Shown: piece after piece, positions 28,772 to 35,731 of the stretch
How the letters are laid out: each line of letters starts with the position of its first letter
How positions within the stretch are numbered: position 1 is the stretch's first letter
Origin: Verrucomicrobiota bacterium
GTDB taxonomy: Bacteria; Verrucomicrobiota; Lentisphaeria; Victivallales; UBA1829
Direction of reading: 5' to 3'
Assembly: GCA_022703965.1 (NCBI GenBank)
Contig: JAKJHH010000009.1
Span: 6,148-42,261 of the forward strand
DNA: 36,114 nucleotides
The notes under the pieces: generated by a model
Told to the model about the DNA's origin: nothing
The model's input: only the letters and a program-made list of their open reading frames with translations
Database searches by the model: none
Made by a program: the position numbers and the translations under genes

Positions 28772-30097
28772 TCAGGTTCTTGAGGGATTGTAAGGGGTTC
28801 TGATACGCGAGGATTTGATGATAGCATCGACTGCCTTCTGTACATCCATCTGGAAGTCCTGCCAGGACTCGTAGCGCTCGGCGGCGTTCTTGGATGTCAT
28901 TCTGGACAGCAATGCGGCGGTTTCCTGCGTAATACTGATATTGGGATTCATGGAGCTGACCGTCGGAAAGGCTTCTTCTATGTGCATTTTGAGCACTTTT
29001 TTCTCGTCCTGATCGTTAAATGGCAGAGAGCCGGTCAGCATTTGGAAGAAAATTATGCCCAGAGAATAAACATCCGCATGCCAGTTGGCGGGACGCCCCG
29101 CTATCTGTTCAGGGCTGGCGTAGTACGGAGAACCGATGGTAATGCCTCCGCAAACATACTTGAAATACCATGGAGAAAGCCCGAAATCTGAAATCACAAT
29201 ATCATCATCGCCTGTAAACAGAACGTTAGATGGCTTGAGGTTTAGGTGAGGCTGTCCTGTTTTCATAAACGCAAGTTCCAGGGATTTACCGACAGCGCGT
29301 AAAATGTATGAAGATTCAAGCTCTGAAAAAGGAGCGTTGCGTGTGATTCTGCGGGCAAGATTTGCGTTTGTAAGGCAATTCATCGTATAAAAACAATGTC
29401 CTTTGTAAATTCCTGCCTCAAGGCGCTGCACAAAGGCCGGACTTGAGAACTCTGAAAAGGACTGCAAGGCTTCAAGGAAATCTCTCTGTGCATCGGGAAC
29501 GGCTGAGAAATCAGCGTTAAAGAGCTTGACCGCAACCGCATCTTTCACATCCGGAGATTTTGCAAGGTAAACTGAACTGCGTGGGCCGTCGCCGAGTTTG
29601 CGTATAATTTCATTGCCCTGGAGCTTATCACCATGCTTGAGCTCAAGAAGACTCTCGGCAACGGGAGGTACAGAGCCTTCATCGCCGCTGAACTTTGGAA
29701 GAGTCTGAGTCAGATCGGCCTCGACCAGATCGTTGAGGCTGAAAACCTTTACAGGAGCAGCAACTTTTTTGATACTGGCGGTGATGGTCGAAGCGTCATC
29801 CGATACGGCAAAACGCATCAGAACGGGACCGATGAGAATCCTGTCGCCGTCTTTGAGAAGGACATCGGAAGATATTCTTGAGCCGTTAAGCATTGTTCCG
29901 TTGGTGGAATGCAGATCGCTTATCGCATATGCGTTCTCTGTCGGGCAGTAGTAAACGCTGCAATGATGACGGCTTATGGCAGGGATGTCGCATAAACTCA
30001 AATCGCTGCTGCGGCTCCTGCCTATCGTGAATTCTTTTTCTGTGTCAAGATGGACGGATTTCTTTTCTCCGTCCTGTTCAAAAATTAAAAGTGCCAT
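28772..30097 (-). CDS. FHA-domain Ser/Thr kinase-like protein with altered HRD motif
   Basis: Residues 1-100 are an FHA phosphopeptide-binding domain: IGRSRSSD (Gly26, Arg27), ISRHHC (Ser42, His45) and STNGTMLNG (Asn66, Gly67). Residues about 160-430 are a Hanks-type kinase fold: LGDGPRSSVYLAK loop, VAVK with Lys191, ISDFG with Asp304, and YASPEQ. The catalytic loop reads HLNLKPSN instead of HRDLKPSN, so the catalytic Asp is Asn286 and the Arg is Leu285. The glycine loop is also imperfect. It may be a pseudokinase or a weak kinase that acts mainly as a phosphopeptide-binding scaffold. There is no membrane segment. It lies 57 bp after the branched-chain aminotransferase gene on the same strand and may share its transcript. 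Confidence 0.88.
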   Translation of the reverse strand: MALLIFEQDGEKKSVHLDTEKEFTIGRSRSSDLSLCDIPAISRHHCSVYYCPTENAYAISDLHSTNGTMLNGSRISSDVLLKDGDRILIGPVLMRFAVSDDASTITASIKKVAAPVKVFSLNDLVEADLTQTLPKFSGDEGSVPPVAESLLELKHGDKLQGNEIIRKLGDGPRSSVYLAKSPDVKDAVAVKLFNADFSAVPDAQRDFLEALQSFSEFSSPAFVQRLEAGIYKGHCFYTMNCLTNANLARRITRNAPFSELESSYILRAVGKSLELAFMKTGQPHLNLKPSNVLFTGDDDIVISDFGLSPWYFKYVCGGITIGSPYYASPEQIAGRPANWHADVYSLGIIFFQMLTGSLPFNDQDEKKVLKMHIEEAFPTVSSMNPNISITQETAALLSRMTSKNAAERYESWQDFQMDVQKAVDAIIKSSRIRTPYNPSRT

Positions 30098-30154: not shown

Positions 30155-31159
30155 TCAGAGCTCAAGCATCCAATTATGCTTGTCCGGACGCTCTCCGTAC
30201 TGAATGCCGGTAACTTCCTCATAAAGTTTCTTGAGGACAGGCCCGCATTCGTCACCGTAGAAAACACTCTTTCCTTCGATGAGAATCTTTCTTATGGGAG
30301 TAATGACGACAGCCGTGCCGCAGGCTCCGACTTCGGCAAAACTTTCCAGTTCGCTCTTGTGTATCGGACGCTTTTCGACCGTCATGCCCATATCCGACGC
30401 AATTTCCATCAGAGACTTGTTTGTGATGCTCTGAAGAATTGAGTGGGAGTCAGGCGTAACGTATTTGCCGTCCTTAGTAATACCGAAGAAATTGCTTGTT
30501 CCGAATTCCTCGATATACTCGTGCGATTTCGCGTCAAGGAAAAGCGGAACCTGGAAGCCGCGTTCCTTGGTTATATGCTGAGGCATGAGGCTGGCTCCAT
30601 AGTTTCCGGCTACTTTTATGTGACCGGTTCCCTTGGGAGCGGCTCTGTCGAAATCCTCGATCACGAGAGAATCGACAGGCTTCATTCCTGCTTTATAGTA
30701 TGGTCCTACCGGAACGACAAGGACGATGAACTCATATTTGTCGCTCGGGGCTATACCGATTCTGGAGCCTGAGCCGATGTGCAGAGGTCTGACATAGAGG
30801 GAGCCTCCGGTTCCGTAAGGCGGAACATATTCTATATTATCGGCAATGACTCTTCTGATTGCTTCAATGAAAATTTCTTCCGGAACTTCGGCGGCAAGAA
30901 TGTGTCTGAGCGTAAGATTCATGCGGGCTGAGTTTTCAGAGGGTCTGAAGACGCGGACTTTGCCATCCTTGCAGCGGAAAGCTTTGAGGCCTTCAAAAGC
31001 GGCCTGTCCGTAATGGAGACATGTTGCCGCGATCGGCAGCGTGATGTTGTGATCCGTTGAAAGCACTCCCGAATTCCATGCTCCGTTTTCGTATGTGTAA
31101 CGGATGTGCGATTTCGCCGGAATGTAGTTAAATCCTAGATTTGCCCAGTCAATTTTCAT
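30155..31159 (-). CDS. ilvE: Branched-chain amino acid aminotransferase
   Basis: The 334-residue protein is a PLP fold-type IV enzyme. It has the family marks CLHYGQAAFEGLKAF, the PLP Lys182 in GTGHIKVAGNYG, and the late EEFGTSNFFGI and GACGTAVVITPIRKI blocks, closest to the BCAT type II subgroup. It transfers the amino group between glutamate and the keto acids of Leu, Ile and Val in the cytoplasm. Length is normal for the family. The ribosome site is weak (AAGTGA). It is divergent from the Pal gene and has no other branched-chain biosynthesis genes at its side. Confidence 0.92.
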   Translation of the reverse strand: MKIDWANLGFNYIPAKSHIRYTYENGAWNSGVLSTDHNITLPIAATCLHYGQAAFEGLKAFRCKDGKVRVFRPSENSARMNLTLRHILAAEVPEEIFIEAIRRVIADNIEYVPPYGTGGSLYVRPLHIGSGSRIGIAPSDKYEFIVLVVPVGPYYKAGMKPVDSLVIEDFDRAAPKGTGHIKVAGNYGASLMPQHITKERGFQVPLFLDAKSHEYIEEFGTSNFFGITKDGKYVTPDSHSILQSITNKSLMEIASDMGMTVEKRPIHKSELESFAEVGACGTAVVITPIRKILIEGKSVFYGDECGPVLKKLYEEVTGIQYGERPDKHNWMLEL

Positions 31160-31354: not shown

Positions 31355-31966
31355 ATGAACTGGTCTAAACTTTTGAGTCTTGGTATTCTCGCAGCGGGTC
31401 TTGTATTTTCCACGACAGGGTGCGGTCTCTTTGAGTCCGACGAACCGGAAGCAGGATTCATGACAGAAGGTGCCGGTCCGGAAAACGGAGCTGGCGGCAC
31501 AGGCGGCCCGGATGCTCTCGGAGCAGGTAACGCTCATGGCGGCGTTGATCCGATGGCGGCAGGCGACTGGGGAAAACCCGGTGAAGGACCTGGCGGAAAA
31601 GCAGGCGAATGGACTCCCATTCCCGGACTTAATTTCCCGAAAATATACTTTGCCTTTGACTCTGACCGCATCGGCTCTTCGGAAGTTCCGAAGCTCCAGC
31701 AGGTCGCTGCATATATGAAGGAACACAAAGACGTCGGTCTCATCATCGAAGGAAACTGCGATGAAAGAGGCAGCGAAGAATACAATAGAGCACTCGGTGA
31801 GCGCAGAGCTATCGCCGCCAAAGAATTCCTTGTCAGCCAGGGAATTGACGGCAGCAGATTCCAGACCATCAGCTACGGCGAAGAAAAGCCTGCTGATCCC
31901 GGCCACAACGAACAGGCTTGGTCAAAGAATCGTAGAGACGAGCTCATCGGAGCAAAGATGAACTGA
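31355..31966 (+). CDS. pal: Peptidoglycan-associated lipoprotein (Pal/OmpA-like)
   Basis: The 203-residue protein has a lipoprotein signal peptide ending in the lipobox STTGC (Cys near residue 23), a Gly-rich linker (about 30-85), and an OmpA-type peptidoglycan-binding domain (about 95-200). That domain carries IYFAFDSDRI and the conserved GNCDERGSEEYN and LGERRA blocks. Pal proteins are anchored in the outer membrane and bind peptidoglycan, normally with TolB. No tolB or tolQRA genes are in view. A terminator separates it from a second, clearly related copy, so the two are a tandem duplication with separate transcription. Confidence 0.9.
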   Translation: MNWSKLLSLGILAAGLVFSTTGCGLFESDEPEAGFMTEGAGPENGAGGTGGPDALGAGNAHGGVDPMAAGDWGKPGEGPGGKAGEWTPIPGLNFPKIYFAFDSDRIGSSEVPKLQQVAAYMKEHKDVGLIIEGNCDERGSEEYNRALGERRAIAAKEFLVSQGIDGSRFQTISYGEEKPADPGHNEQAWSKNRRDELIGAKMN

Positions 31967-32057: not shown

Positions 32058-32654
32058 ATGAATAAACTGAATCTCATGGCCGCTCTTTCTTTCCTCACAG
32101 TTTCACTGCTCTTTACCGGATGCAGTTCCGACAGCGGCAATAAGAGTTCGGGATATGATCCTTCCGCTTCATCGTCTTCTTCTCCGTCTGCTTCGGACAG
32201 TACAAATAATATTCAGTCTCAGACTGTTGATCCGGCAAGTTCGGGCGCATGGGGAAATCCGGGTGAAGGTCCAGGCGCTAAATCAGGTGACTGGAGAACA
32301 AACTCTCACATAAAACTGCCATACAACAACATTTATTTTGCCTTCGACTCCGACAAAATCAGTCCTACTGAAAGTCAGAAACTCGATAAAATCGCCGAAT
32401 TCATGAAAAATGACAGTTCTATCTGCCTCGTAATCGAGGGAAATACAGACGAGCGCGGCAGTGAGGAGTACAACAGAGGCCTCGGCGAACGCAGAGCTAT
32501 CTCGGTAAAAGAAGCCCTTCTCAGCAGGGGCATAGACGGAAGCAGATTTCAGGTCACAAGCTACGGAGAAGAACGTCCCGCCGACACCGGCCATGATGAA
32601 ACAGCATGGGCGAAAAACCGCAGAGCCGAACTTTTCGGCGCAAAAGCTCAATAA
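32058..32654 (+). CDS. Second Pal/OmpA-like lipoprotein, tandem paralogue
   Basis: The 198-residue product has a lipobox signal peptide (LLFTGC, Cys near 22), a Ser-rich linker (about 25-65) rather than a Gly-rich one, and an OmpA-like domain (about 90-195). The latter shows IYFAFDSDKI, GNTDERGSEEYN and LGERRA. It shares the preceding GEGPG and W-G-NPGEGPG-like block with the upstream copy, so the two arose by duplication; linkers have diverged most. AAAGGA upstream supports the ATG. It probably binds peptidoglycan at the outer membrane. Which of the two pairs with the Tol system cannot be told. Confidence 0.88.
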   Translation: MNKLNLMAALSFLTVSLLFTGCSSDSGNKSSGYDPSASSSSSPSASDSTNNIQSQTVDPASSGAWGNPGEGPGAKSGDWRTNSHIKLPYNNIYFAFDSDKISPTESQKLDKIAEFMKNDSSICLVIEGNTDERGSEEYNRGLGERRAISVKEALLSRGIDGSRFQVTSYGEERPADTGHDETAWAKNRRAELFGAKAQ

Positions 32655-32980
32655 TATTTTTACTCCAGCAAGTCTAGCGCGGCATGGCCTCAAGCAAAGA
32701 AGGTCTGTAGACCTTCACCCAAGCAGTGCGCTCCAGCTTCGCTCAGCGCACGGGAAGAATCTGAAAACGGGATTCGACGGCAAGGGACTGCCGTCGCTAC
32801 CCGTCAAATGTCCTTTTTTGTGTCGCAACGAAGTTGAGCGGCACTGCAAGCTTGCAAGGGCTTCCTTGCCAGTCAAGGGACTGACGGCACTACCCGTCAA
32901 ATGTCCTTTTTTGTGTCGCAACGAAGTTGAGCGGCACTGCAAGCTTGCAAGGGCTTCCTTGCCAGTCAAATGTCCCTCAA
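32655..32980. repeat. Hairpin-rich repeat region with a 93-bp tandem duplication
   Basis: No gene is seen in this gap. It holds the hairpins AAGGTC/GACCTT (about 32699) and GTGCGCT/AGCGCAC (about 32726-32751), then a direct tandem repeat with period 93: 32798-32876 and 32891-32969 are identical over 79 bases. Each unit contains ACCCGTCAAATGTCC, GCAAGCTTGC and a CAAGG/CCTTG hairpin. The ACCCGTCAAATGTCC block and the GGCAAGGGACTGCCGTC-like block also occur at 14209-14310, so this is a dispersed family. Confidence 0.8.
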
Positions 32981-34420: not shown

Positions 34421-35731
34421 TCACATTCTACGCATTTTTTTAAAGCGGATTCCCCAAAGAATAAGCAGAAAAATGATGGCTATAATAAATATGCCGGAAA
34501 AAACCGGACTGCTGAATAGAGCTCCGGCAATAAGGAAGGCAAGGACAAGAAAACCTGTCTGAGCACCGGGCATGGACTTTATAAGAATGGAAGGCATCAG
34601 ACGGTTTCCTGACTGGACTCCGCTGATATTTATAGACGTTGCTGTCCCGCTAGTCCCCTTAGCAGGAATGACATGCACAGAGACGGCCTTGACAAGCGCC
34701 GTGACTTCGCTACCTTCCCTGAGTGCGCTGTCGTTGACAGTCTTGCTTGTAACCAGAGCAGTCAGATCAAAGCCGCATTTTATATTGATTCTGGCAAGCG
34801 GTCCCTCGGGAGTGATAGAGCTTATGACTCCCTTCAGTCTGTTCAAGGGATTGTCTCCATCGTAAGAGCCGCTGTGGACAATAACATCCTGAGCGCGGAT
34901 GCAGATGTTGACATCCCCGCTTAAGCCTTCCTCCGGGCAGGCATAGACAGAGGTCTCGCCCACCTTAATGAGAGCGATTCCGGACGATTCCGAAAGAATT
35001 CTGCCCGGAACAACTGTTTCGACTCCGACAATCCTCGCCACAGACAGATCCGAGGGCTTGCTGAAGACATCGGTTACAGCGCCGGTCTGAAGCACCCTGC
35101 CGTTGCCCATGACAACAATGTTATGTCCGAGCGCTAGGGCGTCCATCGGGTCGTGAGTGACGATCACAGCCGGTATCTCATTGGCCTTGAGAAAAAGGCG
35201 CAGCTCCTGACGGACCAGTTCTCGAGTAGGAATATCAAGAGCGGAAAGCGGTTCGTCAAGAAGCAGCAAGCCGGGTTTTCTGATAAGCGCTCTGGCAAGG
35301 GCGACACGCTGACGCTGGCCTCCTGAAATCTCGTTAGGCATGCGCTTTTCAAGGCCGTCAATTCTGAAGCGCTCCATGAAATCGAGAAGCTGCTTATGAC
35401 TAAGATCTTCCATCCCGTAAGCGATGTTCTGAGCAACCGTCATGAAAGGAAAAAGCGCGTAATCCTGAAAAAGGAATCCGGTTTTCCGTTGCTGTGGACT
35501 CACAAAAACACCGGAAGCGCTGTCGAACCATACGTCATTATTCCAGCTTATGTGCCCTTTTTCGGGTTTTTCGAGTCCGGCAAGACAGCGCAATGTCGTA
35601 GTCTTTCCGCATCCTGACGGGCCGAAAAGTATGGTGGACGAAAAGCCTTCAGTGCTCTGACTGAAGGCCGATTTGATGATTGTGGATTCGAAACGCTTCT
35701 CGAAATCCGCGCATAAGATCATGTTTTTCAT
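34421..35731 (-). CDS. modC: Molybdate-type ABC transporter ATPase with an extra C-terminal membrane hairpin
   Basis: Residues 1-230 are the ABC ATPase: Walker A GPSGCGKTT, Q-loop FLFQDYALFP, signature ISGGQRQRVALARAL, Walker B LLLLDEP and switch His in VTHD. Residues about 295-360 (LKGVISSITPEGPLARINI onward) are a TOBE/MOP oxyanion-binding domain, as in ModC. After about residue 385 comes an unusual tail with two strongly hydrophobic stretches (GFLVLAFLIAGALF and IFIIAIIFLLILWGI) and a basic end (RFKKMRRM), which ModC proteins normally lack. Its ATG overlaps the stop codon of modB by four bases, so the two are coupled. Molybdate or tungstate is the likely substrate; sulfate is less likely. 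Confidence 0.87.
   Translation of the reverse strand: MKNMILCADFEKRFESTIIKSAFSQSTEGFSSTILFGPSGCGKTTTLRCLAGLEKPEKGHISWNNDVWFDSASGVFVSPQQRKTGFLFQDYALFPFMTVAQNIAYGMEDLSHKQLLDFMERFRIDGLEKRMPNEISGGQRQRVALARALIRKPGLLLLDEPLSALDIPTRELVRQELRLFLKANEIPAVIVTHDPMDALALGHNIVVMGNGRVLQTGAVTDVFSKPSDLSVARIVGVETVVPGRILSESSGIALIKVGETSVYACPEEGLSGDVNICIRAQDVIVHSGSYDGDNPLNRLKGVISSITPEGPLARINIKCGFDLTALVTSKTVNDSALREGSEVTALVKAVSVHVIPAKGTSGTATSINISGVQSGNRLMPSILIKSMPGAQTGFLVLAFLIAGALFSSPVFSGIFIIAIIFLLILWGIRFKKMRRM

Follow-up and report, generated by a model that had tools for sequence, protein, structure and literature searches.

A candidate family of FHA-fused pseudokinases in the order Victivallales, viewed from one Verrucomicrobiota locus

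The window analysed here, i.e., the whole stretch of 36,114 nucleotides, carries on its minus strand (28772..30097) an open reading frame with an ATG start and a product of 441 amino acids. In the first-pass annotation, this product was described as an FHA protein with a kinase fold, in which HLN takes the place of HRD, while the VAVK lysine, DFG and SPEQ are retained. Pfam matches, codons and motif alignment bear out this description in full. The locus thus raises the question of whether the altered catalytic motif is a peculiarity of one sequence or a trait of a family, and what a kinase fold so modified could do behind an FHA domain.

The FHA domain occupies residues 24–90 (29828..30028, minus strand; Pfam E 9.3e-19) and carries G26 R27, S42 R43 x H45 and N66 G67. 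It is followed by a linker at about residues 101–150 (29648..29797, minus strand), which is modelled with low confidence (pLDDT < 50 at residues 101–143), is probably disordered and is Thr-rich in several relatives of the protein. The kinase-fold domain spans residues 164–410 (28868..29608, minus strand; Pfam Pkinase E 7e-33), and both Pfam matches exceed the curated cut-offs. Motif alignment places VAVK, with Lys191 kept, at residues 188–191 (29525..29536) and SPEQ, the equivalent of APE, at residues 328–331 (29105..29116). HLN (His284-Leu285-Asn286; 29240..29248) and DFG, with Asp304 kept, at residues 304–306 (29180..29188) were located using both the DNA and the motif alignment. All four motifs lie on the minus strand.

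In the AlphaFold2 model of the whole protein, built on the family alignment, both domains are folded (mean pLDDT 83). The kinase part superimposes on Staphylococcus aureus Stk1 with Z 29.2 over 265 residues and an rmsd of 2.8 (VIA-align), and the top ten rows of the comparison give VIA Z values of 28–29 and rmsd values of 2.5–3.4 for Stk1 and Mycobacterium tuberculosis PknB/PknA. The FHA part was searched within the whole model, and nearly all the rows listed are kinase matches. The best PDB sequence match is the kinase StkP (E 4e-31).

Homologues were searched for with the protein itself in 61 genomes, a search in which no second genome of its genus turned up, and with a 24-row alignment (A1) in 137 genomes of the order. 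The A1 search yielded a discrete group of proteins of ~400–480 aa at 321–579 bits; the next matches reached 279 bits at most and mostly covered the kinase domain only. At least 27 of the 137 genomes harbor a family member, including two members from genus g8 added by tree placement. About 12 candidates were scored per genome and matches were listed down to ~213 bits, so the counts are lower bounds: at least 13/36 genomes in the bacterial family of the protein (f1), 8/8 in f3, 2/2 in f7, at least 3/4 in f6 and at least 1/2 in f5. Among the matches listed, no member came from f2 (0/4), f4 (0/78) or f8 (0/3). In a 387-genome sample of the phylum, order members included, the FHA-pseudokinase family was not seen outside the order, where the best match (234.6 bits) comprised the kinase domain only. 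None of four tested family members reached the cut-off of any NCBIfam model.

Motif residues were counted in kinase domains aligned to the family model with coverage above 75%, namely 31 family domains and 139 others. The latter comprise kinases of the order and of other phyla and were chosen by similarity, making them a non-random sample; the outside group consists of 80 kinases of other phyla found with one generic kinase pattern. Domains with lower coverage, including a two-piece paralogue from the same genome (L018, L056), were dropped from the trees and counts. The HRD Arg is found in 0/31 family domains vs 129/139 others, the HRD Asp in 7/31 vs 134/139, the DFG Asp in 9/31 vs 139/139 and the β3 Lys in 28/31 vs 136/139. 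Lys, HRD Asp and DFG Asp occur together in a single family domain (L045) and in 134 of the 139 others; L045, judged by these residues, could be an active kinase. The HRD Asp is replaced by Asn in 13 domains, Ala in three, Ser and Arg in two each, and Cys, Glu, Phe and His in one each. The earlier proposal to look for conservation of the Asn among orthologues therefore has a divided answer: the loss of HRD is common to the family and the residue that takes its place is not, Asn being merely the commonest (13/31). Orthologues with a normal HRD, which would have made the change private to this protein, were not encountered within the family (HRD Arg 0/31, HRD Asp 7/31). Several other positions are family-specific: Trp310 (94% of the family, 1% of others), Cys235 (90% vs 4%), Trp339 (84% vs 8%), Trp412 (84% vs 12%) and Phe193 (84% vs 5%). 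This conservation suggests a new constrained binding surface.

Among the residues expected of an active Hanks kinase, the protein possesses the β3 Lys (Lys191) and the DFG Asp (Asp304), and lacks the HRD catalytic Asp (Asn286) and the αC Glu (Ala210, at a position where 96% of other kinases have Glu). Glu209 lies one residue from Ala210, and a shift of the αC register is still conceivable. The Gly loop, GDGPRSS from residue 169, has its third glycine replaced and keeps G169 and G171. Also retained are K288 and N291, the Mg-binding Asn of the catalytic loop. The protein is hence among the better-preserved members of the family, without the HRD Arg, HRD Asp and αC Glu and with Lys191, Asn291 and Asp304.

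The pocket residues K191, A210, N286, N291 and D304 correspond to those of HER3 (ErbB3) and the JAK2 JH2 domain, a likeness of residues without common descent. As far as the accessible part of the source describes them, HER3 and JAK2 JH2 likewise have Asn for the HRD Asp and no canonical Lys–Glu pair, and keep the β3 Lys, the catalytic-loop Asn and the DFG Asp (PMC4718504). Unlike the FHA-fused protein studied here, both are relatives of eukaryotic tyrosine kinases and carry no FHA domain. The same text reports that they bind ATP with one cation and that both have slight activity (PMC4718504). ATP binding has been measured for these two domains, whereas for our protein it is predicted: given the analogous make-up of the pocket, ATP binding is expected, with little or no phosphotransfer. 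The pocket probably still binds ATP and one metal ion, and its occupancy may serve as a conformational signal.

The same analogy supports the reading of the protein as a weak or atypical kinase that slowly transfers phosphate onto itself or onto a bound partner, as has been described for HER3 and JAK2 JH2. In the accessible text, HER3, with the same residue pattern, shows trans-autophosphorylation in vitro and JAK2 JH2 shows low activity (PMC4718504), and the retention of K191, K288, N291, D304, G169 and G171 would be compatible with residual catalysis. However, 22 of the 31 family domains have no DFG Asp and the Gly loop is often gone, so catalysis is not a conserved feature of the family, and we consider a weak kinase unlikely.

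In order to place the family among other kinases, two phylogenies were calculated. In the FastTree phylogeny of 170 domains, the 31 family domains group together (support 0.996) with no other kinase inside the clade. IQ-TREE, applied to a MAFFT realignment of 94 domains (31 from the family, 45 from the order and 18 from outside), recovered the family with UFBoot 97, the protein together with L022 from bacterial family f7 with UFBoot 98, and a clade of the family plus 15 of the order's HRD/HKD kinases with UFBoot 100. The branches are long, and the deep placement of the family should therefore be taken with caution. Read from these trees and the motif counts, the FHA-pseudokinases would descend from active kinases of the order and would have been without the HRD Arg from the root onward. 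The monophyletic clade and the counts for HRD Arg (0/31) and HRD Asp (7/31) extend the pseudokinase interpretation of the first-pass annotation to the family as a whole. The active FHA-kinases of the order (e.g., L180–L188) also combine an FHA and a kinase domain in one chain; unlike the protein studied here, they have intact HRD, DFG and αC Glu, are encoded by frames of ~590–1400 aa and lie outside the family in the tree. The FHA residues of L180–L188 are partly degraded (several have GY, GC, GH or GS for GR), which is opposite to what the family shows.

Selection was estimated in genus g2, whose four species have lost both the HRD Asp and the DFG Asp (HGN or HGH, with DFG lost). The dN/dS values (NG86) of the pseudokinase domain are 0.076–0.125, and those of two HRD/HKD kinases from the same four genomes are 0.005–0.031 and 0.037–0.067; within single pairs, the value for the pseudokinase domain exceeds those of the two kinases by a factor of 1.1 to 15. 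Since most pairs have a dS close to 1 or higher, these values are rough. The pseudokinase domain of g2 is under strongly purifying selection, weaker than that on the active kinases. For a g2 member with degraded motifs, AlphaFold2 still predicts a kinase fold (mean pLDDT 80).

These data also bear on the alternative that the gene is the decaying remnant of a former FHA-kinase, functionless and drifting to loss. The patchy spread (at least 27/137 order genomes), the residue losses that differ by lineage, the additional loss of the FHA domain in genus g10 and selection weaker than on active kinases agree with such a scenario. Nevertheless, nearly all members have an open frame across the matched region, dN/dS in g2 stays at 0.08–0.13, family-specific Trp residues are conserved and gene order is kept over two bacterial families, and decay consequently appears improbable. 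More improbable still is a kinase fold turned to another ATP-using reaction, such as AMP transfer by SelO or glutamylation by SidJ. These are bacterial pseudokinase precedents in the accessible part of the review (PMC12599244), and the protein keeps likely nucleotide-binding residues; however, the family shows no evident conserved residue that could stand in for the catalytic one, the metal-binding Asp is mostly lost and the solved structures that match best are ordinary kinases of the PknB/Stk1 type. SelO/SidJ-like chemistry was rejected, there being no supporting residue pattern. Finally, a mutation at HRD private to this sequence, or a base-calling error there, which a fragmented assembly of 380 contigs might invite, has a negligible probability and is refuted by the family counts (Arg lost in 31/31 domains and Asp in 24/31, in 27 genomes), and the codons CAC CTA AAC on the minus strand differ from a possible His-Arg-Asp set by two separate single bases, so that one wrong base would not suffice to produce HLN.

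FHA domains read phosphothreonine through the residues Gly-Arg, Ser-x-x-His and Asn-Gly. The protein has all of them (G26 R27, S42, H45, N66 G67), and across the 24 rows of A1, G26 is present in 24/24, R27 in 21/24, S42 in 23/24, H45 in 24/24, N66 in 20/24 and G67 in 23/24. The three rows without R27 represent genus g10 (L034, L035, L037), in which the FHA domain is degraded, and for the two members from genus g8 (L063, L064) no FHA part was aligned by the family model. Phosphothreonine reading is thus likely for the protein and most of its relatives, as judged by these residues, and is not universal in the family, since the g10 residues are lost and g8 has no FHA match.

The linker was considered as a possible site of a GarA-like switch, for which ET/DT is the motif. 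The pattern [DE]Txx[hydrophobic] occurs in 10 of the 24 linkers, as compared to a mean of 3.0 in shuffled sequences, and 1 of 2000 shuffles reached 10, with kinship between the sequences ignored. The linker of the protein itself does not contain the pattern. Given this and the unaccounted relatedness, the GarA-like ET/DT switch was kept as a lead only.

Threonine phosphorylation for the FHA domain to read probably exists in the cell, since the genome encodes at least 13 kinase domains (L001–L013) with the β3 Lys, catalytic Asp and DFG Asp, and has one PP2C phosphatase match. The same genome contains further atypical kinase-like genes. A second FHA+kinase protein outside the family (L017:856-2223), incomplete at a contig end, keeps the Gly loop, Lys, αC Glu and DFG and has PRVKLENGSSN in the HRD region. 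A probable pseudokinase at L014:1-1032 (minus strand) has HRN for HRD and Arg for the β3 Lys, and lies outside the FHA family in the tree. In addition, L056:2533-3252 and L018:1351-1971 match a paralogue of the protein (HGH for HRD), the former in its N-terminal and the latter in its C-terminal half; both lie at contig ends and are probably one gene split by the assembly.

Taken together, it is reasonably probable that the protein belongs to an order-restricted family in which an FHA domain that reads phosphothreonine is tied by a flexible linker to a catalytically impaired kinase-fold adaptor. The FHA domain would dock on threonines phosphorylated by one of the 13 or more triad-intact kinases of the genome, and the kinase-fold domain would then hold or allosterically control a second partner. 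The metal-binding DFG Asp is lost in most relatives, and ATP turnover is therefore not the shared function of the family. With the loss common to relatives in the order, the protein looks like a conserved regulator and not a freak mutation. The interpretation given in the first-pass annotation is partly supported: the pseudokinase reading holds across the family, the scaffold role is a proposal and the argument from the neighbouring genes is weak.

Gene neighbourhoods were compared for clues to the partners. The ilvE and cell-envelope neighbours reported earlier are indeed present: a branched-chain aminotransferase-like gene (ilvE-like; 30155..31159, minus strand; Pfam Aminotran_4, aminotransferase class IV) precedes the pseudokinase gene by 57 nt on the same strand, and two OmpA-domain genes identified with Pfam (31355-31966 and 32058-32654) share one orientation. 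No terminator-like site was found in the 57-nt gap, so given the short distance and common strand, co-transcription of the ilvE-like gene and the pseudokinase gene is possible. The adjacency to ilvE is not conserved (0/33), the gene being absent from the 33 other loci searched (E <= 1e-10), and the ilvE/cell-envelope neighbourhood was taken as local and set aside as a functional clue. By eye, the tandem OmpA-domain products (~200 aa) are lipoprotein-like. Just after the second of these genes, two tandem copies of a 93-nt unit with 97% identity occupy 32781-32966 of the window, and 34421-35731 encodes the ATPase of an ABC transporter; it has a TOBE domain, and its hydrophobic C-terminal tail, by eye, apparently spans the membrane.

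Elsewhere in the family, gene order is conserved over two bacterial families. In the subclade of the protein, thyX (Pfam Thy1) is the next gene downstream, in the same orientation, in 14/14 loci of f7 (first copies), g2, g3, g8 and g10, less than 150 nt from the aligned end. The protein itself, L024, L051 and L052 have no downstream thyX. In the genome under study, thyX sits on another contig, where, by eye, thyX is followed by an asparagine-synthetase-like frame and preceded by a divergent small frame; the link to thyX therefore does not extend to this protein. The loci of the other subclade carry, in 11 of 13 cases, the gene of an uncharacterised, apparently exported protein immediately upstream; this protein is mostly ~480–570 aa long, starts with what looks by eye like a signal peptide and gave no Pfam match in the two members tested. 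Unread bases break up one of the eleven, and another is truncated where its contig ends; the two loci without the gene are second copies in their genomes. For this gene family (L204, L211–L215, L178, L194, L195, L203), the gap to the pseudokinase gene is ~6–15 nt in several loci. At one locus, the exported protein seemed to be fused to the kinase domain; this was discarded, since the frame crosses unread bases.

A more far-reaching reading of these loci, which we put forward tentatively and regard as doubtful, is that of order-specific, one-chain phospho-signal adaptors: a kinase captured behind an FHA reader would have given up its HRD Arg at the base of the family and then become a binding module, with or without nucleotide in its pocket, with one subclade coupled to thymidylate supply (thyX, 14 loci, two bacterial families) and the other to the exported partner. 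If this is true, the graded series from members with Lys, Asn and DFG kept, through those with DFG lost, to those with FHA lost would allow the passage from kinase to adaptor to be followed as a natural experiment. The reader and the pseudokinase share one chain of ~440 aa, the ancestry lies with HRD kinases of the order and relatives stand at several stages of loss; the family is therefore a convenient test of whether selection keeps ATP binding or only the fold.

Bacterial pseudokinases are largely uncharacterised according to a 2025 review, the accessible part of which describes no pseudokinase family it covers as an FHA fusion (PMC12599244). Our literature search found neither a description of the FHA-pseudokinase family, which is weak evidence of absence as most subscription papers lay outside its reach, nor work joining Lentisphaerae with a pseudokinase. 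The definitions in the accessible text of the review differ from the protein as follows (PMC12599244). ActPs3 (MviN) has three degraded motifs and an activation-loop deletion, whereas Lys191 and Asp304 are kept here. GLW pseudokinases have GLW for HRD and a replaced β3 Lys, as opposed to HLN and Lys191. DLHK, with the HRD Asp kept and the ATP-binding and DFG motifs degraded, presents the opposite pattern, and DYD has Arg for the β3 Lys and a DYD motif in place of VAVK and DFG. CP1 is linked to a COG3899 ATPase, whereas Pfam gives only FHA-type and kinase domains in our protein. By these partial descriptions, the protein is set apart from the five families compared, ActPs3, GLW, DLHK, DYD and CP1.

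Rad53/Chk2-type proteins share the order of an FHA domain followed by a kinase domain, and Rad53 1-466 was the top Foldseek match. This match spans two domains at an rmsd of 15, so only the domain order is shared; the Rad53/Chk2-type FHA-kinases are active kinases. We know of no FHA fusion of the EssB/YukC pseudokinase of type VII secretion. As described in the accessible text, EssB/YukC resembles the role proposed here in that a non-catalytic kinase fold is used in assembly (PMC12599244); unlike our protein, it is a membrane protein of a secretion machine with all motifs degraded. The nearest functional analogue, by comparison of the descriptions, is the MviN pseudokinase domain with FhaA in Mycobacterium tuberculosis (ActPs3), in which, as far as the accessible part of the review states, a pseudokinase and an FHA domain act jointly on a phosphothreonine signal (PMC12599244). 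There, the two domains belong to two proteins, MviN being a membrane protein with all three motifs gone and no ATP binding according to the same text (PMC12599244), whereas here the FHA domain and the pseudokinase are joined in one chain, with the Lys and DFG kept.
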